Shown piece after piece: positions 7,673-58,857 of a stretch of DNA of 58,991 nt. The DNA is from Spirulina subsalsa FACHB-351 (lineage in GTDB: Bacteria > Cyanobacteriota > Cyanobacteriia > Cyanobacteriales > Spirulinaceae), in contig NZ_JAIHOM010000015.1 in the NCBI RefSeq assembly GCF_026130165.1, positions 1 through 58,991 on the forward strand, given 5' to 3'. How positions within the stretch are numbered: position 1 is the stretch's first letter; each line of letters opens with the position of its first letter. Below the pieces are notes generated by a model that was given only the letters and a program-made list of their open reading frames with translations, was not told the origin of the DNA and did not search any database. The translations under genes were made by a program, and so were the position numbers.

Positions 7673-8308
7673 ATGTCGTTTGAATTATTATCACTGGAAA
7701 ACATCCAAGAGATTGCAGATCACTACGGTTATTGGGCAGTATTTGGTGGCATTGCCCTAGAAAATACAGGCATTCCCCTACCCGGTGAAACCATTACCCT
7801 TGTTGGTGGTTTTTTAGCGGGCAGTGGTGAACTCAATTATTGGTGGGTATTAGCCAGTGCAATGGGCGGTGCAATTGTAGGCGATAATTTTGGCTACTGG
7901 ATTGGCAAATTTGGCGGGTGGCCTCTCTTAAAACGTCTTGGTCGTTTATTTCGCATCTCAGAACACCAATTAGAGAAAGCTAAAGCCCAGTTTAGTCAGA
8001 ATGCCGGACGGGCTGTTTTTTTCGGACGCTTTGTGGCACTGTTGCGGATTTTCGCCGGACCGATGGCAGGCATTGCCCAGATGCCCTATCCTCAGTTTTT
8101 ATTGTATAACTCCGGCGGGGCAGCCCTTTGGGCTTCCGTCATGGTGACATTATCCTTTTTTATTGGTCGAGTAGTTCCCCTCACTCAAATGGTGTCCTGG
8201 GTGGCTGATTTTGGCATTGTAGTATTAGTGGGGATTGTGGGCTGGGTGATTATTTCCCTATTGTTGGAGTCAAGAAAAAATCGCTTAGAATCCTCACCAT
8301 TAGAGTGA
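7673..8308 (+). CDS. DedA-family membrane protein
   Basis: 211 residues with the DedA/SNARE-associated pattern: an amphipathic N-terminus, a re-entrant motif ENTGIPLPGETITLVGGFLAG, a glycine-rich segment GAIVGDNFGYWIGK, and the second motif FFGRFVALLRIFAGPMAGIAQM with the conserved arginines. DedA proteins are half-transporter-like membrane proteins; some members flip undecaprenyl phosphate or phosphatidylserine/ethanolamine lipids. The ATG at 7673 lies 64 bases after the rhomboid stop. Exact lipid or ion substrate cannot be read from sequence. Confidence 0.88.
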   Translation: MSFELLSLENIQEIADHYGYWAVFGGIALENTGIPLPGETITLVGGFLAGSGELNYWWVLASAMGGAIVGDNFGYWIGKFGGWPLLKRLGRLFRISEHQLEKAKAQFSQNAGRAVFFGRFVALLRIFAGPMAGIAQMPYPQFLLYNSGGAALWASVMVTLSFFIGRVVPLTQMVSWVADFGIVVLVGIVGWVIISLLLESRKNRLESSPLE

Positions 8309-8737
8309 CCGACTCCCAAAGTTGAATCCTGTCCATTCGTTACACCCTCCCGACGCTGACTGCAACGGTACAGCGCGGGCTTCCCCACATCACTATGAGG
8401 CTTTCCTGATTCTACAAAAGGCCCTAGACATCTTGTTAGGGCTTGCTGAATAACTCGGGGAGTCGGGGAGCAGGGGAGAGGGTTAGATATTGCCCGACAA
8501 GAAATCGAAAATAAACATAGCAAAAGCAGCAACTGGATTAGACTTGCGTTGAACTTCCTCGTGTCGTTGAGACTGGCTAGAGGCTAACCGCACTTAGGAG
8601 TACAGGCTTCACACTCTCTGCGGGCTAATTAGAGGATGTTATCGCGTTCTGAATCAGTTGCTGCCCTTGCGTTCGTCGAGACAGATATGAAGGGTAACAG
8701 CTTTTTTACCTCTCTATGCTATTTGGACTCGAACTTG

Positions 8738-8832
8738 GCTGTTTTATCTGCCAGGGAAGCTTGATTAGCTTCAATTACTAATGTAGGAGAGTTAACTGGA
8801 AAAAACAAGGGTTTGTTACTAAAGTTAACTAA
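8738..8832 (-). pseudogene. Decayed copy of a duplicated small coding sequence
   Basis: The minus strand here reads NFSNKPLFFPVNSPTLVIEA and then NQASLADKTAK before a stop. This matches the small ORF at 9107-9304 over about 30 residues (NFSNKNLCF..., IEAIKASLADKTAK). The frame has no ATG, GTG or TTG at the equivalent start position, so this copy looks dead. No family is recognised. Confidence 0.4.
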
Positions 8833-9106: not shown

Positions 9107-9304
9107 TTAAACAGCGCTTTTTACCTCTCTATGCGTATTGTCTATGCGTATTCGATGTAACTTGCTTAACGTCAATAGCCTATGGATTTTTTCTAGACTA
9201 TTGGGCTTGGCTGTTTTATCTGCCAGGGAAGCTTTAATTGCTTCAATTTCTACTGTAGGGAGGTTCTGAGAAAAACACAAGTTTTTGTTACTAAAGTTCA
9301 TCAA
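9107..9304 (-). CDS. Small ORF with a related decayed copy nearby, unknown
   Basis: 65 residues beginning MMNFSNKNLCF. The first 32 residues match the translated minus strand at 8738-8832, but the two then diverge because this copy carries extra sequence of about 45-60 bases. The shared reading frame suggests descent from a coding sequence rather than noise, but no domain is recognised, the ribosome site is weak, and the gene may itself be a truncated remnant. Its promoter would lie in the spacer before purN. Confidence 0.3.
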   Translation of the reverse strand: MMNFSNKNLCFSQNLPTVEIEAIKASLADKTAKPNSLEKIHRLLTLSKLHRIRIDNTHREVKSAV

Positions 9305-9573
9305 ACAAGGGAAAAAAAACCATTTTGTTTAGTTTGAGCTTGTTTTCGTTTACTAAAGTTAATACATAAAAGATTAATCGCTCATCTTTTGATGAAAGTG
9401 TTTTACAGCGAACAGTTGAACCGTTGGGCGGGGGTTCTCTGCACTTGGAAAAATAAAAAAATGCCGTGAGAAGGGCTGAAATTGTCCTTAAAGGCTTATC
9501 CTAGTCTAGCTAGCCCTTGTCATAGGCTGCTTGCCATTGAGTTGTCCTGTCGTTATAGACCCGAGCTTTTTTT

Positions 9574-10215
9574 ATGATGGAGCAAACGCCGAGTTTTATC
9601 TCTCCTCCCCTAATCCCGGAAGACTTACGACTACCGGAAACCCTCAAGTTGGGAGTTCTGGCCTCGGGCAGTGGGAGTAATTTTGAGGCGATCGCCCATT
9701 CCATCGCCCAAGGTCAACTTAACGCCCAAATCCAAGTCCTGATCTACAACAAACCCAAAGCCAAAGCCCGAGAAAGAGCCGAGCGTTTAGGTATACCGGC
9801 CATTCTGCTCAATCACCGCCATTTCCGCAGTCGAGAAGCCCTCGATCACGAGATTGTCAATACCTTTAAACAGCATGACGTGGAATGGGTGATTATGGCC
9901 GGGTGGATGCGCATTGTCACCCCCGTATTATTGGATGCCTATTGCGATCGCGTCCTCAACATTCACCCCAGCCTACTCCCCAGTTTTCCCGGCGTAGATG
10001 GTGTAGAACAAGCCCTAGCCGCCGGAGTGAAAGTAACAGGCTGCACCGTCCACATCGCCAAAGAAGAAGTCGATAGCGGTCCCATTCTCATGCAAGCCGC
10101 CGTTCCCATCCTCCCCGACGACACATCCGAAACCCTTCACGCTCGGATTCAAGTGCAAGAGCATCTCATCTTCCCCCGTGCGATCGCCCTTGCCGCCTTG
10201 CAATACAGTGAATAA
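9574..10215 (+). CDS. purN: Phosphoribosylglycinamide formyltransferase
   Basis: 213 residues. PurN transfers a formyl group from 10-formyltetrahydrofolate to GAR, the third step of purine synthesis, in the cytoplasm. The phosphate-binding loop LASGSGSNFEAI, the active-site block NIHPSLLPSFPG, and GCTVHIAKEEVDSGPIL carry the catalytic Asn, His and Asp. About 25 residues precede the usual family start (LKLGVLASG); the ATG doublet at 9574/9577 is the only good start, and such leaders are common in cyanobacterial PurN. Confidence 0.95.
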   Translation: MMEQTPSFISPPLIPEDLRLPETLKLGVLASGSGSNFEAIAHSIAQGQLNAQIQVLIYNKPKAKARERAERLGIPAILLNHRHFRSREALDHEIVNTFKQHDVEWVIMAGWMRIVTPVLLDAYCDRVLNIHPSLLPSFPGVDGVEQALAAGVKVTGCTVHIAKEEVDSGPILMQAAVPILPDDTSETLHARIQVQEHLIFPRAIALAALQYSE

Positions 10216-10322
10216 CGCCATTATGATAGTCTTAAAACCAGTCTTCGGTTGAGTCAACCTTAGCCCCAAACTTCCCCCCTCAGCCCCATCGGCCATCGTG
10301 GATTACTAGGAGAACCAGAGCA

Positions 10323-10916
10323 ATGGAAGGATGTTTACGAGTCGGACAACTCGCCCCAGAATTTAGCGCAACAGCCGTCATCGACCAAGAATTTAAAACC
10401 ATTAAACTCTCCGACTACCGGGGTAAATACGTCGTTCTATTCTTCTACCCCCTTAACTTCACCTTCGTTTGTCCCACCGAAATTACAGCCTTTAGCGATC
10501 GCGCCAGCGAATTCACCACCCTGAAAACCCAAATTCTCGGCGTATCCGTCGATAGTGCCTTCTCCCACCTCGCCTGGATGCAAACCGAACGCAATCAAGG
10601 CGGCATCGGCAACATCACCTATCCCCTGATCTCCGACATCAAAAAAGACATCAGCACCGCCTACAACGTCCTAGACCCCGATGCTGGCGTAGCCATGCGC
10701 GGCCTCTTCATCCTCGACAAAGACGGCATCATCCAACACTCCACCATCAACAACCTCTCCTTCGGTCGCAGCGTAGACGAAACCCTCCGCACCCTCAAAG
10801 CCATTCAATACGTCCAAACCCACTCAGACGAAGTATGTCCAGCCGGATGGCAAGAAGGAGACAAAACCATCGTCTCCGACCCCAAAAAATCCAAAGTCTA
10901 TTTTTCCGCCATCTAA
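10323..10916 (+). CDS. Typical 2-Cys peroxiredoxin
   Basis: 197 residues. It reduces hydrogen peroxide and organic peroxides using thioredoxin as electron donor. The peroxidatic Cys50 is in [11 protein letters not shown] with the conserved Pro43 and Thr47, and the resolving Cys172 is in DEVCPAGW. Both GGIG (93-96) and a C-terminal YF pair (193-194) are present, features linked with sensitivity to over-oxidation in eukaryote-like 2-Cys peroxiredoxins. The ATG at 10323 follows an AGGAG-like site (actaggagaacc). A second peroxiredoxin-like gene follows in the same direction. Confidence 0.95.
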
Positions 10917-10961
10917 AAACCAGAGCCGAAAATCTACCCAAAATATCCCAAAAATACCCCC

Positions 10962-10988
10962 ACCCCCACTTGAGTCCAGTGGGGGCAG
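10962..10988 (+). terminator. Hairpin after the 2-Cys peroxiredoxin gene
   Basis: CCCCCACT and AGTGGGGG form an eight-pair stem around a seven-base loop about 50 bases after the stop. No U-run follows, so it may stabilise the transcript end rather than terminate by itself. Confidence 0.4.
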
Positions 10989-11044
10989 TTCAACTACAAT
11001 AAAAAGGATGAACAGCCCATTGCCCCCATCCTATTAACCACTCT

Positions 11045-11584
11045 ATGCTCACATCCACCGACTTCCGAGGTCTACTCAACCCCCGCTTCTTCTCCAACTT
11101 CCTACCCATCCCCGCCACCAGTCCCCTCCTCATCGGCCGCCAACCCCCCGACTTTTTGCTCCCCGATGTCCGCAACAAAACCACCCTAAGACTCTCCGAC
11201 TACAAAAACAAACAAACCGTCATCCTCGCCTTTACCCGCATCTTTACCGAAAAACAATACTGTCCCCTCTGTTATCCCCACATCAAAGCCCTCAACGAAA
11301 CCTACGAACAATTCACCGCCCAAGGCACCGAAATCCTCATGATTACCAGCACCGATAATCGACAAAGCCAAAAAGTTGTTCAGGATCTCAACCTAAAAAT
11401 GCCCCTCCTCAGTAACCCCAGTTGCGACGTCTTCCGCAGTTACCAAGTCGGTCAAGCCCTAGGCGCACCCCTTCCCGCCCAGTTCATCATCGACAGCCAA
11501 GGCATCCTACGCTACAAACACCTCTTTTCCTTCCTAGAACCCAACGCCAGCATCGAGAAACTCCTCAGCCTCCTAAAGCCATAA
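11045..11584 (+). CDS. AhpC/TSA-type peroxiredoxin with CxxC active site
   Basis: 179 residues of thioredoxin-fold AhpC/TSA type. The expected start of the fold (GRQPPDFLLPDVRNKTTLRLSDY) is followed by QYCPLCYPH with Cys73 and Cys76, then a peroxiredoxin-like GTEILMITSTDNRQSQ and the final GILRYKHLF strand. The CxxC spacing differs from the TPGCT signature of PrxQ/BCP, so it may work as a thiol-disulfide reductase or atypical peroxidase. The first 28 residues are an extra leader. It lies 128 bases after the 2-Cys peroxiredoxin gene. Confidence 0.8.
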   Translation: MLTSTDFRGLLNPRFFSNFLPIPATSPLLIGRQPPDFLLPDVRNKTTLRLSDYKNKQTVILAFTRIFTEKQYCPLCYPHIKALNETYEQFTAQGTEILMITSTDNRQSQKVVQDLNLKMPLLSNPSCDVFRSYQVGQALGAPLPAQFIIDSQGILRYKHLFSFLEPNASIEKLLSLLKP

Positions 11585-27035: not shown

Positions 27036-27061
27036 GCAACAGCCCTCCCCTCCCTAAACAA

Positions 27062-27302
27062 TTAATAATTGATAATTGTTTCGCCATCCGTAGGTTGGGT
27101 GAAGCGAAGCGCAACCCAACAAAACAATTGATAATTGTTTCGCCATCCGTAGGTTGGGTGAAGCGAAGCGCAACCCAACAAAACAATTGATAATTGTTTC
27201 GCCATCCGTAGGTTGGGTGGAGCAAAGCGCAACCCAACAAAACAATTGATAATTGTTTCGCCATCCGTAGGTTGGGTGAAGCGAAGCGCAACCCAACACC
27301 CC
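27062..27302. repeat. Tandem array: four copies of a 59-base repeat
   Basis: Four units of 59 bases, measured between identical points at 27081, 27140, 27199 and 27258. Each holds CAATTGATAATTG, TTTCGCCATCC and a palindrome GTAGGTTGGGTGAAGC ... GCGCAACCCAAC. The third copy has two changes (GGAGCAAAGC). Each unit can fold as a hairpin. The array lies between the convergent ends of the sigma-like gene and the small protein gene. Confidence 0.9.
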
Positions 27303-27351
27303 TACAATCTAGAAACCCGCTTTCTGGCTACAGCTAATTTTTCACCGCCAA

Positions 27352-27654
27352 TCAAACAATCTTCAATCCGATATAACCGACAATAATTTGGGCAGATTGT
27401 ACCGGAAAAAAGTAAAGCCTCCACGCTCCCGGAGTTAAGCGAAGATGTAAGCTAAACAAGCGTTGTTCCCCATCAGGACAAGGAATGGTCAGCCTGCTAG
27501 TGAATTGCCTCAGTCTTGACTCACTTTCTGGCGTTGCCTTACTAGGCAGCGTGTTTAAATAATCAAAAGCCCCTCCTTTCCACTCTTTAGCCGCCGTTTC
27601 CAGTTCAAATAACCGTTTTCTAACCTGCCCGAACATGGGATTACTCGCTAACAA
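27352..27654 (-). CDS. Small protein, third gene of the DUF262/AAA operon
   Basis: 100 residues from a TTG at 27654, but similar-looking protein sequence (DGEELFPHLEFCRSTEEQLATL) runs on upstream in frame to the end of the ATPase gene without an ATG, GTG or TTG. The true start is therefore unclear: a rare start, translational coupling, or a frameshift are all possible. The protein has charged helical N-terminal half and a beta-rich C-terminal half (CPDGEQRLFSLHLRLTPGAWRLYFFP, IIVGYIGLKI). The same gene order suggests it works with the ATPase. No family was recognised with confidence. Confidence 0.6.
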   Translation of the reverse strand: MLASNPMFGQVRKRLFELETAAKEWKGGAFDYLNTLPSKATPESESRLRQFTSRLTIPCPDGEQRLFSLHLRLTPGAWRLYFFPVQSAQIIVGYIGLKIV

Positions 27655-27728
27655 AGTCGCTAGCTGTTCTTCAGTGCTGCGGCAAAACTCAAGATGAGGA
27701 AATAACTCCTCACCATCTCTAATCTCAT

Positions 27729-28841
27729 CTAATCTTCTCCTAAAGGGGTTAACAAAGCCTCTAAACTCTTATCCCACTCATCAAAAAAACCATCAGGCCA
27801 TTGATCAATTCTCCCCTGTTTATCTATATGGGGTGAAATGACTTTTGTTTTCGATTCTCCCTGACTTTCAAAACGTTCTAAATAATGAAGCTGCACATTA
27901 TCAGGGCTAAGTTTACCGTGATAAACGGCTAAACGAATGCCATTCAAAACATGATCACTATGAGTTTCTACGACAATTTGAATCCCACAACTAGCGGCTA
28001 GGGCTAGTAATTCTCCCATCTTTGCTTGTCCTTTTGGATGTAGATGAGCTTCGGGATTTTCTAATAAAATTAAACTACCAGGTTGTGCGGAGAGAATCGC
28101 CACTATAATGGGTAATGTATAGCTAATCCCAAATCCTACATTAGTCGCACGATAAGGGTTACTTAGGCCATAGGAATATTTTAAGCTGACTAAATCAAGT
28201 TGGGAACTTGCTTGAACATTAATCCTTGTACCGGGGCTAATTTCCCCTAGCCAAGCTTCTACTTGGTTAATAAGCAATAGTGATTCTTGATCCGGATGTT
28301 TTAAGACAGGTGAGGCGATTTCTTGGGAGCGATAAAGAGATAAAAAATAAGCCGTGTATTCTCCTTGACTGCCTAACTGTTTATGCTGTCTTACTTGAAA
28401 GTCCGAGATTTCTAGATACGTTCGAGAACCTATTCTTTCAGCTTGAAGATATTGGAAACTATCATCAAACAAGCTATATTTATAAATCTTGCTATCCAGA
28501 ACGGGGGCATTGAGTTCTAATACATCGACAGCTTTATTGTAGTTAAATGTCCAGTTAGCTACAATGCCATTGTTTAAGGCAAGTTCTAGGCTAATTAGAT
28601 CCTCTCTTGCTCCTTCAAAAAGTGCATCTTGTGCTGTACCAATTCTCACCAGTTCCCCGTTGAGGGCTAAACCCTGATCGGGTAAAAGATTCTGTTGATA
28701 AGATTGACGCAGTAATAAAAGAGAATGGATAATTGAGGATTTTCCACTACTATTTAATCCCGAAAGTAGCGTTAAATTCTTAAAAAGAAAGGCTTGCTGC
28801 TCAAAACATTTAAAGTTTTTCAAGGTCAATTGTTTAATCAT
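27729..28841 (-). CDS. AAA ATPase with C-terminal DUF3696 domain
   Basis: 370 residues of the RecF/SMC-like AAA_15 type with the DUF3696 end. Walker A GLNSSGKSS at 28-36, a signature-like VGFGISYTLPIIVA near 236, Walker B LILLENPEAHLHP at 257-269, the H-loop VETHSDHVLNGI at 291-302, and the DUF3696 block IDQWPDGFFDEWDKSL near 345. Such ATPases are frequent partners in phage-defence and nucleic-acid systems. Its ATG overlaps the stop of the upstream DUF262 gene (ATGA at 28838-28841), showing translational coupling. Confidence 0.9.
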   Translation of the reverse strand: MIKQLTLKNFKCFEQQAFLFKNLTLLSGLNSSGKSSIIHSLLLLRQSYQQNLLPDQGLALNGELVRIGTAQDALFEGAREDLISLELALNNGIVANWTFNYNKAVDVLELNAPVLDSKIYKYSLFDDSFQYLQAERIGSRTYLEISDFQVRQHKQLGSQGEYTAYFLSLYRSQEIASPVLKHPDQESLLLINQVEAWLGEISPGTRINVQASSQLDLVSLKYSYGLSNPYRATNVGFGISYTLPIIVAILSAQPGSLILLENPEAHLHPKGQAKMGELLALAASCGIQIVVETHSDHVLNGIRLAVYHGKLSPDNVQLHYLERFESQGESKTKVISPHIDKQGRIDQWPDGFFDEWDKSLEALLTPLGED

Positions 28842-29965
28842 GGCAAGATATCTTGAACTAATTGTTGAATATTAATAAAGCGAATTTTAACCTGTTCACT
28901 CGCTTGAGAAATAGAGCGTGAAAAATCAGGATCATGATCAATAAGCTCGGTAAATTTATCAAGTAACTCTGTTTTATGTTCAATCAGATAGTCTATTTGA
29001 GAATCATTTAATCTTGCTAAGGTTGTAGACCACGCTTCAAACAATGCTTGATTGAGTGGATAGCGTCTTGAGGCTTTACGGGAAATTTTGCGAAAAGCAT
29101 TATCCCCAAAAATACTATAGGCAGCTTGCATTGCTCGTTTAAAGTCTTGCTTAATCTTTTGGCTTTGTTCTTCAGTCAAATTTTGATTAAGCTGCTTCAT
29201 GGTTTCACTAAAAAACATATCTCGGCTGGCAAATTGGCTATATTTTTCATAACCCTGTAGATAGTAAGCCAAAAAACCGAGAACAAATTCTTGATCAACC
29301 ATGCGTTCTTGTTTCTTTGACTTATCTAACTGGGTGACTGTAATAAATTCTGAAAGTTGGGCTAAATCACGCAAAAGTTTTGTTGATTTGCCTTGGTTTA
29401 GGGCGTTGCGAATTTCTTGGGGAGAGAGAGGAACGCCACCCGTATTAATCCGTCGAAAAATATTATACTTTACGGCGGGTGGAGTCCCCGGTTCAATGGT
29501 TGAGAGGATTAATTCAGTTTCCAGAATACGCCGTTGATATTTACGATGCAGTTGTTCGTAGGTCGTATCTTCAAGTTCCTTGAAATATTGTAATCCAGTT
29601 AATCTTAATGGCTTTTCTGTGTCTAGAAGAAACTGTTTAAGAGCCGTTAATCGTTGTAATCCATCAATCACAACCCACCGATCATCATCCGTAGCATCAA
29701 TATAAAAGGCAGGCAAAGGAATCCGAATGAGGATAGATTCAATGAGTCTACTTTTTGCCTCATTTGTCCAAATTCCCGGTCTGCGCTGAAAATCTGGAGC
29801 GAGGTCTAGTTCATCGTGTTTAATCCGTTGTAAAATTAAATCAATGGTAATTTTGCGAGTATCAATTCTAATTTGAGTAGGATCAAAAAATTCGTTTAGA
29901 CCTTCATCATTGACTTCTATTTCTATATCTAAGTCGCTGGTGTCTGGGGTGATTTCTTCAGTCAT
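28838..29965 (-). CDS. DUF262 (GmrSD N-terminal, ParB-like) protein without nuclease domain
   Basis: 375 residues. The DUF262 domain begins near 38: ILQRIKHDELDLAPDFQRRPGIW, then the hallmark WVVIDGLQRLTAL with DGLQR at 101-105 (the DGQQR motif of ParB-like NTP binding). Many DUF262 proteins, such as GmrSD, carry an HNH (DUF1524) nuclease at the C-terminus. Here residues 200-375 are helical with no HNH signature, so nuclease activity would need a partner. It is the first gene of the operon, coupled to the AAA ATPase by a four-base overlap. Start at 29965. Confidence 0.88.
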   Translation of the reverse strand: MTEEITPDTSDLDIEIEVNDEGLNEFFDPTQIRIDTRKITIDLILQRIKHDELDLAPDFQRRPGIWTNEAKSRLIESILIRIPLPAFYIDATDDDRWVVIDGLQRLTALKQFLLDTEKPLRLTGLQYFKELEDTTYEQLHRKYQRRILETELILSTIEPGTPPAVKYNIFRRINTGGVPLSPQEIRNALNQGKSTKLLRDLAQLSEFITVTQLDKSKKQERMVDQEFVLGFLAYYLQGYEKYSQFASRDMFFSETMKQLNQNLTEEQSQKIKQDFKRAMQAAYSIFGDNAFRKISRKASRRYPLNQALFEAWSTTLARLNDSQIDYLIEHKTELLDKFTELIDHDPDFSRSISQASEQVKIRFINIQQLVQDILP

Positions 29966-33412: not shown

Positions 33413-34696
33413 ATGGTTCAAACCCTGAGATTTATTGACCTATTTGCAGGTTTAGGAGGAATGCGAATTGGCTTAGAAAAAGCCTGTACAAGCCTGCAAA
33501 TTAAGAGTCATTGCGTATTTACATCCGAAATAAAATCATCTGCCTTAGCCGTTTATTCCCAGTATTTTTTAGACCAAACAATAGCGGGAGATATTAGCCA
33601 AATTCCCAGTCAAGAGATTCCCAATTTTGATATTTTACTAGCCGGATTTCCTTGTCAACCCTTTAGTAGTGCGGGAACAAGGCAAGGCTTTTTAGACACT
33701 AGAGGAACGCTTTTTTTTGAGATTCAACGGATTTTAAAAGCGAAAAAACCATTAGGGTTTTTATTAGAAAATGTGGAGGGATTGGCAAAACATGACCAGG
33801 GCAGAACATTAAAAACCATTTTATATTGTCTGCAATCCTTGGGCTATCAAGTGACTTGGAAAGTCCTCAATAGTCAAGATTTTGGGGTTGCCCAAAACCG
33901 AAAACGGATTTATATAGTAGGACTCCAACAAAGCGTTATAAGTTGGGATTTCCCCCCATATTTCCCTAAAAGACTCTCAGATATTTTAGACCGCGAACAA
34001 CCGCTTTTAAATAATGCTTTTACTCAGTTACTTTTATCTCATTATCCCCTAGAAGAACTCCAAGGGAAAGCGATTAAAGATAAACGAGGGGGACAGGATA
34101 ATATTCACAGTTGGGATCTTGAATTAAAGGGAAGCGTTTCACCGGAACAAAAGCAGGTATTAAATTTACTCCTTAAGCAACGACGGAGAAAGGTGTGGTC
34201 GGCGAAAAAGGGGATTCAATGGATGGATGGCATCCCTTTAACGGTGGAGGAGATTAACAGCTTTTATCCTCACCCTACATTATCGACTTTATTAGATGAT
34301 TTAGTCGAGAAAGGTTATCTTAAATATGAGCAGCCTAAAGATATTCAGTCTATAGTAAATTCAGAGGGAAATATTGTCAAAAAGCGGCTCTATCGGGAAG
34401 ATTTAGCCAAAGGTTATAATATTGTGGTAGGTAAGCTAAGTTTTCCCATTACAAAAATTCTCCATCCCCATGATGTGACTCCTACTTTAGTGGCGACTGA
34501 TATGCAGAAATTGGCGGTAGTGGATGGGAAAGGGTTGAGATATTTAACCATTCGGGAAGGATTGAGACTTTTTGGGTTTCCTGAAGATTATCAGATTAAT
34601 TTACCCCCAGAAAAAGCCTATGATTTACTGGGAAATACTGTTGTGATTCCAGTAATAGAAGCGATTGTGCAGAAAATGCTGGTGATGTTACTGTAG
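33413..34696 (+). CDS. Orphan DNA (cytosine-5) methyltransferase
   Basis: 427 residues with the ordered C5 motifs: I (FIDLFAGLGGMRIGL), IV (GFPCQPFSSAG with the catalytic Cys), VI (LLENVEGL), VIII (QNRKRIYIVG), and IX-X (RYLTIREGLRLFGFPEDY, LLGNTVVIPVI). The target-recognition region includes a basic helical insert (KQRRRKVWSAKKGIQWMDG). No restriction nuclease is adjacent. In Synechocystis an orphan enzyme of this size methylates CGATCG, the core of HIP1, and this protein is a candidate ortholog; specificity cannot be proven from sequence alone. Confidence 0.9.
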   Translation: MVQTLRFIDLFAGLGGMRIGLEKACTSLQIKSHCVFTSEIKSSALAVYSQYFLDQTIAGDISQIPSQEIPNFDILLAGFPCQPFSSAGTRQGFLDTRGTLFFEIQRILKAKKPLGFLLENVEGLAKHDQGRTLKTILYCLQSLGYQVTWKVLNSQDFGVAQNRKRIYIVGLQQSVISWDFPPYFPKRLSDILDREQPLLNNAFTQLLLSHYPLEELQGKAIKDKRGGQDNIHSWDLELKGSVSPEQKQVLNLLLKQRRRKVWSAKKGIQWMDGIPLTVEEINSFYPHPTLSTLLDDLVEKGYLKYEQPKDIQSIVNSEGNIVKKRLYREDLAKGYNIVVGKLSFPITKILHPHDVTPTLVATDMQKLAVVDGKGLRYLTIREGLRLFGFPEDYQINLPPEKAYDLLGNTVVIPVIEAIVQKMLVMLL

Positions 34697-42621: not shown

Positions 42622-42739
42622 AGGGCTTAGGGAATCTCCCGTAGGTTGGGTGAAACGAAGTGCAACCCAACATTTTATCCTGAAGGGCTTAGGGAATCTC
42701 CCGTAGGTTGGGTGAAACGAAGTGTAACCCAACATTTTC
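42622..42739. repeat. Two tandem 62-base units with a GTAGGTTGGGTGAAACG hairpin
   Basis: AGGGCTTAGGGAATCTCCC followed by GTAGGTTGGGTGAAACG and GTGCAACCCAAC occurs twice, 62 bases apart. It is related to the 59-base array near 27.1 kb but with GAAACG in place of GAAGCG. Confidence 0.85.
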
Positions 42740-43157
42740 CTAACTTGTTCAGTGGCGCTCTGCCTTAAATCAATCAACGGAGGGTTAGTATGCCAGAAAC
42801 CGGGTTGATTTTATTGGCTCGTTTGGGGTCTACATCTTAGCAAAAACCCGGTTTCTTGATTGAAAGTTTACCCAACATTTTCCTAAATTGTTAGGTGGCG
42901 CTCTGCCTTAAATCAATCAACGGGGGGTTAGTATGCCAGAAACCGGGTTGATTTTATTGGCTCGTTTAGGGTCTACATCTTAGCAAAAACCCGGTTTCTT
43001 GATTGAAAGTTTACCCAACATTTTCCTAAATTGTTAGGTGGCGCTCTGCCTTAAATCAATCAACGGGGGGTTAGCGTGTCCAGAAACCGGGTTGATTTTA
43101 TTGGCTCGTTTGGGGTCTACATCTTAGCAAAAACCCGGTTTCTTGATTGAAAGTTTA
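42728..43157. repeat. Three tandem copies of a 143-base repeat
   Basis: Units begin at 42728, 42871 and 43014 (CCCAACATTTT) with spacing of 143 and 143, and the next occurrence of the junction is at 43158. Each contains TGGCGCTCTGCCTTAAATC and a long inverted repeat AGAAACCGGGTT ... AACCCGGTTTCT, which can form a stem with a loop of about 40 bases. Copies differ at only a few positions, so duplication is recent. No ORF of note crosses all three units. Confidence 0.92.
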
Positions 43158-43174
43158 CCCAACATTTTATCCTG

Positions 43175-43214
43175 AATTGTTGGGTTGCGCTGTCGCTCCA
43201 CCCAACCTACAGAG
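43175..43214. repeat. Single TTGGGTTGCGCTGTCGCT-type hairpin repeat
   Basis: TTGTTGGGTTGCGCTGTCGC and CCACCCAACCTAC form a further member of the dispersed GGTTGGGT family in opposite orientation to those near 42.65 kb. The stretch to 43320 contains AT-rich sequence with no gene. Confidence 0.8.
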
Positions 43215-44232: not shown

Positions 44233-44620
44233 AGTTGAACAATAAGTTAATCTGTAGACATCTCCTGAAACCCCATTTAACGTCCCTCTCCCACCTTGGG
44301 AGAGGGATTTAGGGAGAGGGTCAAGTTTTAAGGGACTTCTCAACAAGCGGTAACAGCTTACCCAGGGCGCAAGCATTGCTTACCCAGGGCGCAAGCATTG
44401 CTTACCCAGGGCGCAAGCATTGCTTACCCAGGGCGCAAGCATTGCTTACCCAGGGCGCAAGCATTGCGCCCCTACTAATATTTAGGGGTTTCTCTGACTT
44501 TTTTTTAAAAAAAACTTCCAATCTGTCCCCTTGTCTGGTAAATTCTTTAAGGAAACTACATATTCACCTTAAGTTTCTACTTTCCCTTTGTTAACTTACG
44601 TTAAAAATGACCGTTAAATA
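44233..44620. other. Spacer upstream of the CDF transporter
   Basis: It contains a CCCTCTCCCACCTTGGGAGAGGG hairpin region near 44284-44306, the 22-base tandem array described separately, and an AT-rich stretch from 44490. No gene was recognised. Promoters for the transporter (left) and the 113-residue unknown (right) must lie here. Confidence 0.55.
44357..44466. repeat. Tandem array: five copies of a 22-base repeat
   Basis: Units starting CTTACCCAGGGCGCAAGC occur at 44357, 44379, 44401, 44423 and 44445 and are identical. There are no spacers between them, so it is not a CRISPR. The array is just upstream of the transporter gene. Confidence 0.95.
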
Positions 44621-53662: not shown

Positions 53663-54610
53663 CTAGAAAATACGACCCAGACGTTCCCGCAATTCAGTCG
53701 CTGCGGCTTTCAGGTGTTCTGGGGTGTATCCTGTTGTTTCAATGGAAACAGCAATATGAGATTGATCACTCTCATGCAAATGGAGCCAAAGCACTTTACG
53801 CCCATCATCTAAATCCCGTGGTGAACCTTTAACCCCATTTTTAGGAGCAGAAAAGGCTTGAGCATCAAAACGAACTAAATCAACCCAAGGTAAGTCTTGC
53901 AGAATTTTCTCAACTTTTTTCCAACTTTTTGGACGATGATGACCTTGTTTTTCCCCTTGCACTTGAATCACTGGATTACGAGATCGTCCCGATTCGGGGA
54001 GTTTGCTGCCATAGTTACGCTGAACCCGTCCTTCCGGTTGCCCACTGGTGTTAATATAGGGTAAATAGACTAAAGCCTTATAGGCTTCGTGAATATAGCA
54101 AACAGGCACACCCAAAGCATTTCCCACCAATCCCATCACCATCGTTTGTGCTTTAAATCCCCCCGTTGCTGCTAAAGTGACAATTCCATCCGCTTGTTGA
54201 ATCCGTTCCCGAAGGAGACTGGCCATTTGTTCTAATGCCGAACCCGATTCATCCAGTTCATAATTAATATCAGGAATCGGTTCAATATCAACATAATTCT
54301 GTTCGAGGCAGGTTTTAAAGTAATTTTGTAAAACTTCTGCACATTCTTGACCGGAGGGAGTAGCCGAGTGGAGGAGAAGAATGCGATCATTTTTATCTGG
54401 ATCAAGTCGCCACAGGGTATTAGTTTCTGCACTAATCAGTTCTAATTCAGCCGTTTTCATCCACGTTAAAGGTTGATCAATGCTGTTGAAAATGCGTTGA
54501 TCTTCAAACTTATTTTTGTTTGTAACCCAAGGACGTTTTTGCTCATTGGGTAGATCGCGATCGGAGTTTGTGCGTAGGGATGTGCCTACAGTCATAATGA
54601 TAGTTTGCAT
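53663..54610 (-). CDS. CARF protein of APE2256 type (type III CRISPR accessory)
   Basis: 315 residues. The N-terminal half is a CARF (Cas_APE2256) fold: IIMTVGTSLRTN at the start, the LHSATPSGQEC strand-loop, and TLAATGGFKAQTMV, which bind cyclic oligoadenylate in family members. Residues 200-315 form a separate domain (KKVEKILQDLPWVDLVRFD, VLWLHLHESDQSHIAVSIETTGY) that I could not assign; no HEPN RxxxxH motif is visible. It may be an effector domain or a ring-nuclease-like partner. It lies 14 bases downstream of the truncated HEPN ORF. Confidence 0.8.
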   Translation of the reverse strand: MQTIIMTVGTSLRTNSDRDLPNEQKRPWVTNKNKFEDQRIFNSIDQPLTWMKTAELELISAETNTLWRLDPDKNDRILLLHSATPSGQECAEVLQNYFKTCLEQNYVDIEPIPDINYELDESGSALEQMASLLRERIQQADGIVTLAATGGFKAQTMVMGLVGNALGVPVCYIHEAYKALVYLPYINTSGQPEGRVQRNYGSKLPESGRSRNPVIQVQGEKQGHHRPKSWKKVEKILQDLPWVDLVRFDAQAFSAPKNGVKGSPRDLDDGRKVLWLHLHESDQSHIAVSIETTGYTPEHLKAAATELRERLGRIF

Positions 54611-54624
54611 AGCTTTACAGTGCT

Positions 54625-54729
54625 TTATTTATTAGCTTTTTGGGCTTGAGAACTGGCTGTTTTAACAGCTACTTTAATTTTATTGACTTCTTGATTAAGT
54701 CGAGCGATTAAAACATTATATTTACTCAT
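54625..54729 (-). pseudogene. Truncated HEPN-domain ORF after the MNT gene
   Basis: 34 codons beginning MSKYNVLIARLNQEVNKIK, with its ATG overlapping the TGA of the MNT gene (ATGA at 54726-54729). The sequence resembles the first helix of HEPN/HepT-like toxins (LIARL...EVxxIKxAV), which normally reach 110-150 residues and hold an RxxxxH motif. Here the stop comes before any such motif, so the toxin would be dead. The residue match is a visual comparison, not a search result. Confidence 0.5.
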
Positions 54730-55085
54730 AATTCTTGACCTTGCAAAATCGCCGCTAAAATTTCTGGTCTAGCCGATTGTACTTCTACTAAATCAATCTC
54801 AAATTCACTCAAACCCAAAAGCTTCGATACTGCTTTAAAATAGCTCTTTTCTGGCAGATTCCAAACCGCTAAATCAATATCAGAGTTTTCGTGAAATGTA
54901 GGACTGAGTAATGAGCCAAATAGGACAATGCGAGAGGCTCTAAACTCAGTTTTGAGCATTGCTGCTGCTTGTTGAGCAATTTCTAAACCATGAATTCGAC
55001 GTTTTTCGAGTGCTATGCTGTGTTTGTGTTGCCATTGCTGGGCAGATACAATATATTGCTGCATTTTTTGAATTGAGATGTTCAT
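54726..55085 (-). CDS. MNT-type nucleotidyltransferase (antitoxin-like)
   Basis: 119 residues. The minimal nucleotidyltransferase core is visible: IVLFGSLLSPTFHENSDIDLAVW, with GSxxxP and the DxD of the catalytic site, and EIDLVEVQSARPEI. In HEPN-MNT toxin-antitoxin systems the MNT protein neutralises the HEPN RNase, sometimes by AMPylation. Its stop overlaps the start of a truncated HEPN-like ORF. The module lies between two CARF genes and may have been carried along with the CRISPR accessory block. Confidence 0.85.
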   Translation of the reverse strand: MNISIQKMQQYIVSAQQWQHKHSIALEKRRIHGLEIAQQAAAMLKTEFRASRIVLFGSLLSPTFHENSDIDLAVWNLPEKSYFKAVSKLLGLSEFEIDLVEVQSARPEILAAILQGQEL

Positions 55086-55188
55086 GGGGTGTTTCTTGAT
55101 TTGATCACCTATTGTTTGATTAAATCACTCATTGAGATAGTCCATGCGGATGAAGGGTAAATAGCGGGCGCGATCACTCAATAAGTAT

Positions 55189-56064
55189 TTAGCATCCTAA
55201 ATCTTTTTTAACAGTGTTTATTAGATGATCTTTATCTGTTTCAGAAAGACCATTGGAGTGATCATCTAACAACTCAATTACTTTGATATGATGCGCTTCA
55301 GCAAGCTTACGGTTATCAGAACCAAGCTCTTGATCTAAAATCAAAAATCTTTTTGTATAAGTTCCCAAAAACTCTCTTTGAGTTGCTGTACTTAACTGAT
55401 CAATAGATTCTTTCTTCTTTGCTTTTTTACCAGTTTTTATCTCTGCTATTCCTATTTGATTTTTGCACCGTAGCAGCAAATCAATCTCTAATGATCCCCC
55501 GATACAAATATTCATCATAATTTGACAAACCTCACATTTAAGGGCTAGATGCACCAATTCTTCAAATTCTTCTGCCTTAGAACGTTTTGTATATTTAAGC
55601 CCATGAGCATCTAAGTAATCCTCAATTGAAATATAACTACTTGATTCTTGGTTAGATTGTAATCGAAGTTCACCATCATGAAAAGCATAGTTGTAAACAA
55701 TGCTTTTTCTCTTTTCGCTTTGAAGATAAACAATCTCTGATTTTAATTGTTCTGCAAGCCGAAATGCACCAAGAGACATTGGCTTGGTTCCACCTGTTAA
55801 ATTAAAAACTAAATCGGTAGACTTCCAACATTGAGAATCAACCTCCTTGTTGATTTTAGATTGTATATCCAAAATGTCATATGGAGAAACTTCAAGTGAA
55901 TGAATTTGACAAGAATTCAAAATTGTACAAAGATTTTCATAAGCCTTTTTTGTGGTTTCAGTATAAACCAAAAGAACTTTTTGAGTTTGATAATCTCGAA
56001 TTGCTAATAAATTAGGGATAGGTTGCTCTCCAACCAGGCAAATCATTACATGATTACTATCCAT
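55189..56064 (-). CDS. CARF protein with PD-(D/E)xK nuclease-like C-terminus (DUF1887/Card1-Can2 type)
   Basis: 291 residues from the ATG at 56064, with GAGGA 8 bases upstream; a longer frame to 56223 overlaps the RAMP gene and is rejected. The CARF part (1-160) holds MICLVGEQPIPNLLAI and the cyclic-nucleotide-binding loop VFNLTGGTKPMSLGAF. The C-terminal part has GGSLEIDLLLRCKNQIGIAEIKTGKK, the spaced Asp and Glu-x-Lys of a PD-(D/E)xK nuclease. Enzymes such as Card1/Can2 cut DNA or RNA when cyclic tetra-adenylate binds. It is downstream of the RAMP gene with a 52-base gap. Confidence 0.85.
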   Translation of the reverse strand: MDSNHVMICLVGEQPIPNLLAIRDYQTQKVLLVYTETTKKAYENLCTILNSCQIHSLEVSPYDILDIQSKINKEVDSQCWKSTDLVFNLTGGTKPMSLGAFRLAEQLKSEIVYLQSEKRKSIVYNYAFHDGELRLQSNQESSSYISIEDYLDAHGLKYTKRSKAEEFEELVHLALKCEVCQIMMNICIGGSLEIDLLLRCKNQIGIAEIKTGKKAKKKESIDQLSTATQREFLGTYTKRFLILDQELGSDNRKLAEAHHIKVIELLDDHSNGLSETDKDHLINTVKKDLGC

Positions 56065-56116
56065 ATTTTTGTTCCTCAATAGTTTATTGATGGCAAGAGT
56101 TTGAGTAGATTTTCTT

Positions 56117-58857
<2,741 letters not shown>

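Follow-up and report, generated by a model that had tools for sequence, protein, structure and literature searches.

The window analysed here is a stretch of 58,991 nucleotides from Spirulina subsalsa FACHB-351 (contig NZ_JAIHOM010000015.1, positions 1 to 58,991). Its minus strand carries an operon of two intact genes and the remnants of a third. The first gene, nsnA (28838–29965), encodes a 375-aa DUF262 protein (GmrSD_N, ParB/Srx-like), and the second, nsnB (27729–28841), encodes a 370-aa RecF/PtuA-like ATPase with a DUF3696 domain. The stop of nsnA overlaps the start of nsnB in an ATGA at 28838–28841; this overlap and the three open frames lie where the initial annotation of this DNA had placed them. 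Directly 3′ of the nsnB stop, an ATG at 27728–27726 opens a frame that runs for 22 codons only (27660–27728, minus strand) and is the start remnant of nsnC. The end remnant, a predicted RelE/YoeB-like domain equivalent to NsnC model positions 195–313, occupies 27352–27711 on the same strand, and a deletion junction within nsnC is placed at 27711–27712.

This locus is a decayed copy of Menshen, a named anti-phage system that is itself already known. PADLOC profiles match NsnA at 1.3e-129 (residues 14–374 of 375) and NsnB at 1.1e-128 (residues 1–364 of 370), and the order nsnA-nsnB-nsnC on one strand is that of Menshen. We take the PADLOC proteins NsnA, NsnB, and NsnC to be the Menshen proteins nsnABC of Millman et al. 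2022. The third frame matches the NsnC profile at 7.6e-40, covering just positions 190–303 of 305, and a Pfam search with it gave no match. The nsnA product matches Pfam GmrSD_N (5.6e-22), the DUF262 family, with no Pfam match (E ≤ 1) to DUF1524 or to an HNH family, which bears out the earlier description of a DUF262 protein without its usual HNH domain. Within its IDGLQR motif, D101, G102, Q104, and R105 are invariant in an alignment of eight sequences. The nsnB product matches Pfam AAA_15 (3.6e-23), AAA_21, and DUF3696 (4.6e-18), as expected of the RecF-like ATPase with DUF3696 first described. NsnB was also considered as the nuclease of the system and dropped, since no TOPRIM family matched it at E ≤ 1 in Pfam.

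The break in nsnC is defined by comparison with a sister species of the same genus and with NsnC homologues. The sister species matches the first 17 bases of the window’s nsnC, and DNA identity stops at base 27712; identity to a second copy in the sister genome ends at the same base. NsnC homology restarts at 27711, equivalent to model position ~195, and the alignment match spans 27355–27711. The junction 27712/27711 is thus fixed from both sides, by the end of sister-species identity and by the start of NsnC homology. Across this junction the start and the tail of nsnC lie in different frames, and the window’s nsnC lacks about positions 6–194, so it does not encode a complete NsnC. A 9-base direct repeat was considered as the cause of the deletion and dropped, because the sequence as far as 27712 is accounted for by the nsnC start of the sister species.

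Read back from its end at 27352, the tail frame stays open for 138 codons, past 27729. Its first ATG corresponds to residue 32 of the predicted product P0001, and its first listed start is a TTG at 27654. The initial annotation had treated this frame as a small protein in its own right; judged from the sequence, with a match limited to the end of the NsnC profile and no early in-frame ATG, it represents the C-terminal third of NsnC, left over from a broken gene, and is no complete effector. A second NsnC acting in trans was also sought in the window genome and the sister genome. For the long type, just the fragments described here were found, and for the short type there was no match in a search that had no positive control.

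In the sister species, nsnA and nsnB are intact and occupy the corresponding position next to an ABC1 kinase gene, with protein identities to the window of 87% for NsnA and 96% for NsnB. What survives of the sister nsnC is the first 12 codons, positions ~103–197, and a frame-shifted end; the toxin domain has been lost. This break differs from the window’s, and the part that survives in the window is the part missing in the sister species. The ancestor of both species thus probably carried an unbroken nsnC, which each line then lost on its own. A second fragment in the sister genome, at 3.979 Mb, consists of the nsnB end and nsnC positions 1–25 and adjoins a homologue of the window’s left flank, which places the operon end at a rearrangement breakpoint.

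The left flank of the operon contains a tandem array of 3.9 copies of a 59-bp unit (27067–27298), which the initial annotation had read as typical of an accessory island. The array is real, but as an island border it was rejected: it reproduces a repeat dispersed through the genome and lies at a synteny breakpoint (27041–27306), and its repeat pattern has 21 exact matches genome-wide on 8 contigs, 5 of them in the window, and 4 exact matches in the sister genome. Further arrays lie elsewhere in the window. A 62-bp unit array at 42622–42738, with one exact match to the same repeat pattern at 42641, adjoins a 143-bp unit array at 42727–43191, and a perfect 22-bp tandem array of 5.1 copies (100% matches) occupies 44356–44467. 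The window also contains type III CRISPR-related genes identified by PADLOC on the minus strand at 53666–58792, encoding a CARF protein (53666–54610), a CARF-PDDEXK protein (55192–56223), and an 891-aa Csm3/Cas7-III-D-like protein (56120–58792). A C5 cytosine methyltransferase gene at 33413–34693 adjoins endonuclease III; its product has 87% protein identity in the sister species, and no restriction partner was found among the scanned neighbouring ORFs.

In relatives, nsnC begins at the nsnB stop or a short distance after it, and its product is either of a long type (296–331 aa, 53 loci) or of a short type (251–283 aa, 10 loci). The window tail shares 60% identity with the C-domain of the long-type NsnC of locus L046, for which a predicted model reaches a pLDDT of 93.4. 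In rows 1–28 of its VIA-align list, 24 of the 28 matches are named RelE, YoeB, YafQ, ParE, or HigB; row 25 is another toxin, and rows 12, 22, and 23 are proteins without such toxin names. Row 25 falls on the C-domain, and the other rows are small proteins matching it at residues 192–310. The best match of the C-domain is 6n90_B (Z 8.5, rmsd 2.6, 85 of 86 residues), where Z 8.5 alone is modest because models without a clear match often reach a best Z of 7–8. Foldseek returns YoeB and RelE at probability up to 0.84, with none at E ≤ 0.001. On this predicted model, the uniformity of toxin naming across the VIA-align list is a stronger point than the score, and the C-domain is assigned the BECR/RelE fold at a Z near the background of 7–8. 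Families missing from VIA-align lists are not counted as excluded. The N-domain of the same model is weakly PIN-like (2mdt, Z 4.7).

Four residues of the L046 C-domain, E252, H279, R288, and Y304, are each conserved in no fewer than 49 of 54 rows, and all are retained in the window tail; a catalytic role for them is a guess. The initial annotation had left the cutting activity to an unknown domain, the small protein, or an added partner. The models favour the third gene, in line with one of these options, and the Menshen effector is most likely its predicted RelE/YoeB-like RNase-toxin domain.

The toxin-like end of NsnC is not the same in all relatives. The short-type C-domain resembles a small chain of the Cupriavidus taiwanensis CDI complex 5t87 (Foldseek probability 1.00, best E 3.3e-3, Z 7.8), and the chain’s residue numbers 169–236 suggest that this chain is the CDI toxin rather than the immunity protein. 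The short-type N-domain matches VapC/PIN chains at Z 5–6. The long-type NsnC of L085 has a Gp49/HigB-like end with an E of 0.0011, below the Pfam cut-off. With RelE/YoeB-like, 5t87-like, and Gp49/HigB-like C-domains among its products, the third gene seems to couple one shared N-domain to toxin-like ends that can be exchanged. In an Okeania locus (L111, 6444–8700), a complete nsnC is followed by extra copies of the toxin-domain end; a selected tandem of NsnC ends was considered there and dropped, as the copies are separated by stops and N runs. Loci L195–L200 form a related branch with a weaker NsnA and an ATPase of 446–469 aa; in five of these six, the third protein is 284–285 aa long, starts with MEIFINEVSL, and has no match to the NsnC sets used.

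The state of the operon in relatives was surveyed with an input of 122 loci, 89 from a first set and 33 from a phylum set, in which the named loci are the best 80 of 175 relatives. Locus L044, which has fragments only, was left out of this input. Ten loci were removed because their nsnA stretch was identical to another’s (L186, which has its own nsnB lesion, was dropped together with L185), and one locus without nsnA (L045), nine with weak nsnA, and eight near contig ends were set aside, leaving 94 complete loci found through NsnA. All three genes are intact in 71 of the 94. The first two genes were scored intact with nsnC broken in 8 loci and with no nsnC found in 1; nsnB was scored broken with nsnC intact in 2, one of them an artefact, and other combinations account for 12. 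L075 was scored nsnB-broken through a split alignment, while its frame is actually 396 aa; the nsnB end of L192 is clipped too, and L077 lacks part of nsnA where its contig begins.

After manual checking, nsnC alone is broken in seven loci (the window, L037, L053, L054, L087, L115, and L172), and nsnB alone in one (L187). Set against gene length, this difference has a p of about 0.02 in a one-sided, post hoc comparison, in which the single stop codons of L054, L087, L115, and L172 are possible sequencing errors. On these weak statistics, single-gene lesions strike nsnC more often than nsnB; nsnA losses are under-counted, as loci were found through nsnA. In L053 (Nostoc sp. UCD121, 8157–8759), nsnA and nsnB are intact and nsnC is cut after about 108 codons; it continues in frame into the apparent end of a next gene, an ending shared with a downstream ORF of L179.

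The initial annotation had called for the three-gene set to be searched across genomes, and this search found conserved co-occurrence. Among 386 phylum genomes, an NsnA match (E ≤ 1e-60) occurs in 27 and a match to long-type NsnC (E ≤ 1e-8) in 15, every one of which is among the 27. The tail finds a match in 6 of 59 relatives, the window genome included. Among these six, exceptions to strict co-occurrence are G055, with nsnB and nsnC in the absence of nsnA, and G027, with fragments only. In the survey, nsnA occurs without nsnB and nsnC in L092 and L097. Locus L045 carries nsnB and a complete nsnC without nsnA at 9202–11278, and its divergent upstream gene is C5 DNA methyltransferase-like by eye. 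The proposal of a candidate defence module therefore stands in that the trio is a conserved set of anti-phage type, intact in most surveyed loci; it requires correction in that the system already has a name and this copy is probably dead or incomplete.

In an intact copy, NsnA and NsnB would act as the sensor of infection and keep NsnC restrained or set it free, and the RelE/YoeB-like C-domain of released NsnC would cut RNA and stop the infected cell. In the window copy, the toxin domain has neither an in-frame start codon nor the PIN-like N-domain, and defence would be lost. It is thus highly likely that this is a Menshen operon whose nsnC was disabled by a deletion of ~188 codons plus a frame shift, and that the locus no longer defends the cell.

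Selection on the two intact genes bears on this reading. Between the window and the sister species, dN/dS is 0.20–0.25 for nsnA and 0.09–0.12 for nsnB, with 0.03–0.16 for four neighbouring genes, which indicates from sequence divergence that nsnA and nsnB were under purifying selection. Such selection speaks against plain decay, which would erode it, but the lesions may just be recent. Other Menshen pairs, including some in which nsnC is broken too, have a dN/dS of about 0.07–0.37 for nsnA and 0.05–0.44 for nsnB, with one saturated value left out. The values for the window and the sister species fall within that range. Dating the nsnC loss by dN/dS was dropped as not decisive.

The same values are compatible with retention of nsnA and nsnB as a two-gene unit, which could, for instance, neutralise Menshen toxins brought in by mobile DNA or act as a regulator. 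Both genes are intact in both species, the eight loci scored with only nsnC broken fit this arrangement, and nsnA persists alone in L092 and L097. However, the dN/dS averages include time in which nsnC was probably intact and are unexceptional among Menshen pairs, and decay that begins with the toxin would look the same; retention of such a unit is unlikely. Equally doubtful is the sequence of events in which the toxin was lost first and nsnAB was then selected, as an antidote or a rewired sensor, in both species of the genus examined.

An alternative that we consider quite improbable is that the tail constitutes an independent gene, encoding a stand-alone RelE/YoeB-like toxin with a weak start under NsnA/NsnB control. 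The tail has 125 codons without a stop, holds nearly the whole toxin domain with its conserved E, H, R, and Y, and could use a rare start codon; the deletion ends near the NsnC domain boundary, and nsnC ends persist in other decayed loci (L044, L063, L110, and L175). Yet no ATG or GTG precedes the first strand of the toxin domain, the TTG at 27654 would remove that strand, and the nsnC ATG opens a frame other than that of the tail. Moreover, the nsnC ends of L044 and L063 contain stops, and the sister species has no toxin domain. An assembly error in the 279-contig draft, with the junction beside a tandem array, is very improbable as the source of the deletion, since the junction lies ~400 bases from the array and the sister species, assembled in 2 contigs, also has a broken nsnC, at other places.

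Reading the locus as a disabled Menshen operon has several consequences. The question of the effector is answered by the third gene, most likely encoding a RelE/YoeB-like RNase toxin that is broken here. As a natural pair, the two species lend themselves to the question of what function NsnA and NsnB have once the toxin is gone. A testable hint from the survey is that Menshen is most vulnerable at its toxin gene, as would be expected if NsnC is costly. For annotation, the presence of nsnA and nsnB does not equal a working Menshen. Among the literature matches listed, which are open-licence papers, no title is on the decay of Menshen.

Several known systems share parts of this locus. The C-domain of NsnC has the predicted fold of RelE/YoeB/HigB toxins, but NsnC is larger, has a PIN-like N-domain, and is neighboured by nsnA and nsnB rather than by a recognised antitoxin gene. 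The DUF262 domain is common to GmrSD, BrxU, and SspE of type IV restriction and Ssp systems, from which NsnA differs in having no DUF1524 nuclease match. NsnB is related to PtuA of Septu, which pairs PtuA with the HNH protein PtuB; here the ATPase has no HNH PtuB beside it and is flanked by nsnA and the nsnC remnant.

Passages of a review place Menshen among DUF262 systems, in which mutation or deletion of the DUF262 gene abolished resistance, and assign it a predicted OLD/TOPRIM nuclease (PMC10952713). In this respect the locus departs from the description in those passages, as NsnB gives no TOPRIM match at E ≤ 1. Gerdes 2025 describes ptuXYZ as a DUF262 protein, a PtuA-like ATPase, and a third protein with PIN-like and YoeB-like parts (PMC11980606). 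Compared by these descriptions, ptuXYZ is most likely Menshen under another name: the gene order, the DUF262 protein, the PtuA-like ATPase, and, in relatives, the PIN-like/YoeB-like third protein are the same, whereas the window retains just the toxin half of the third protein. Apart from the loss of about positions 6–194 and of the reading frame of nsnC, the locus has in common with Menshen its gene order, its DUF262 protein, its DUF3696 ATPase, and a tail of the NsnC family.
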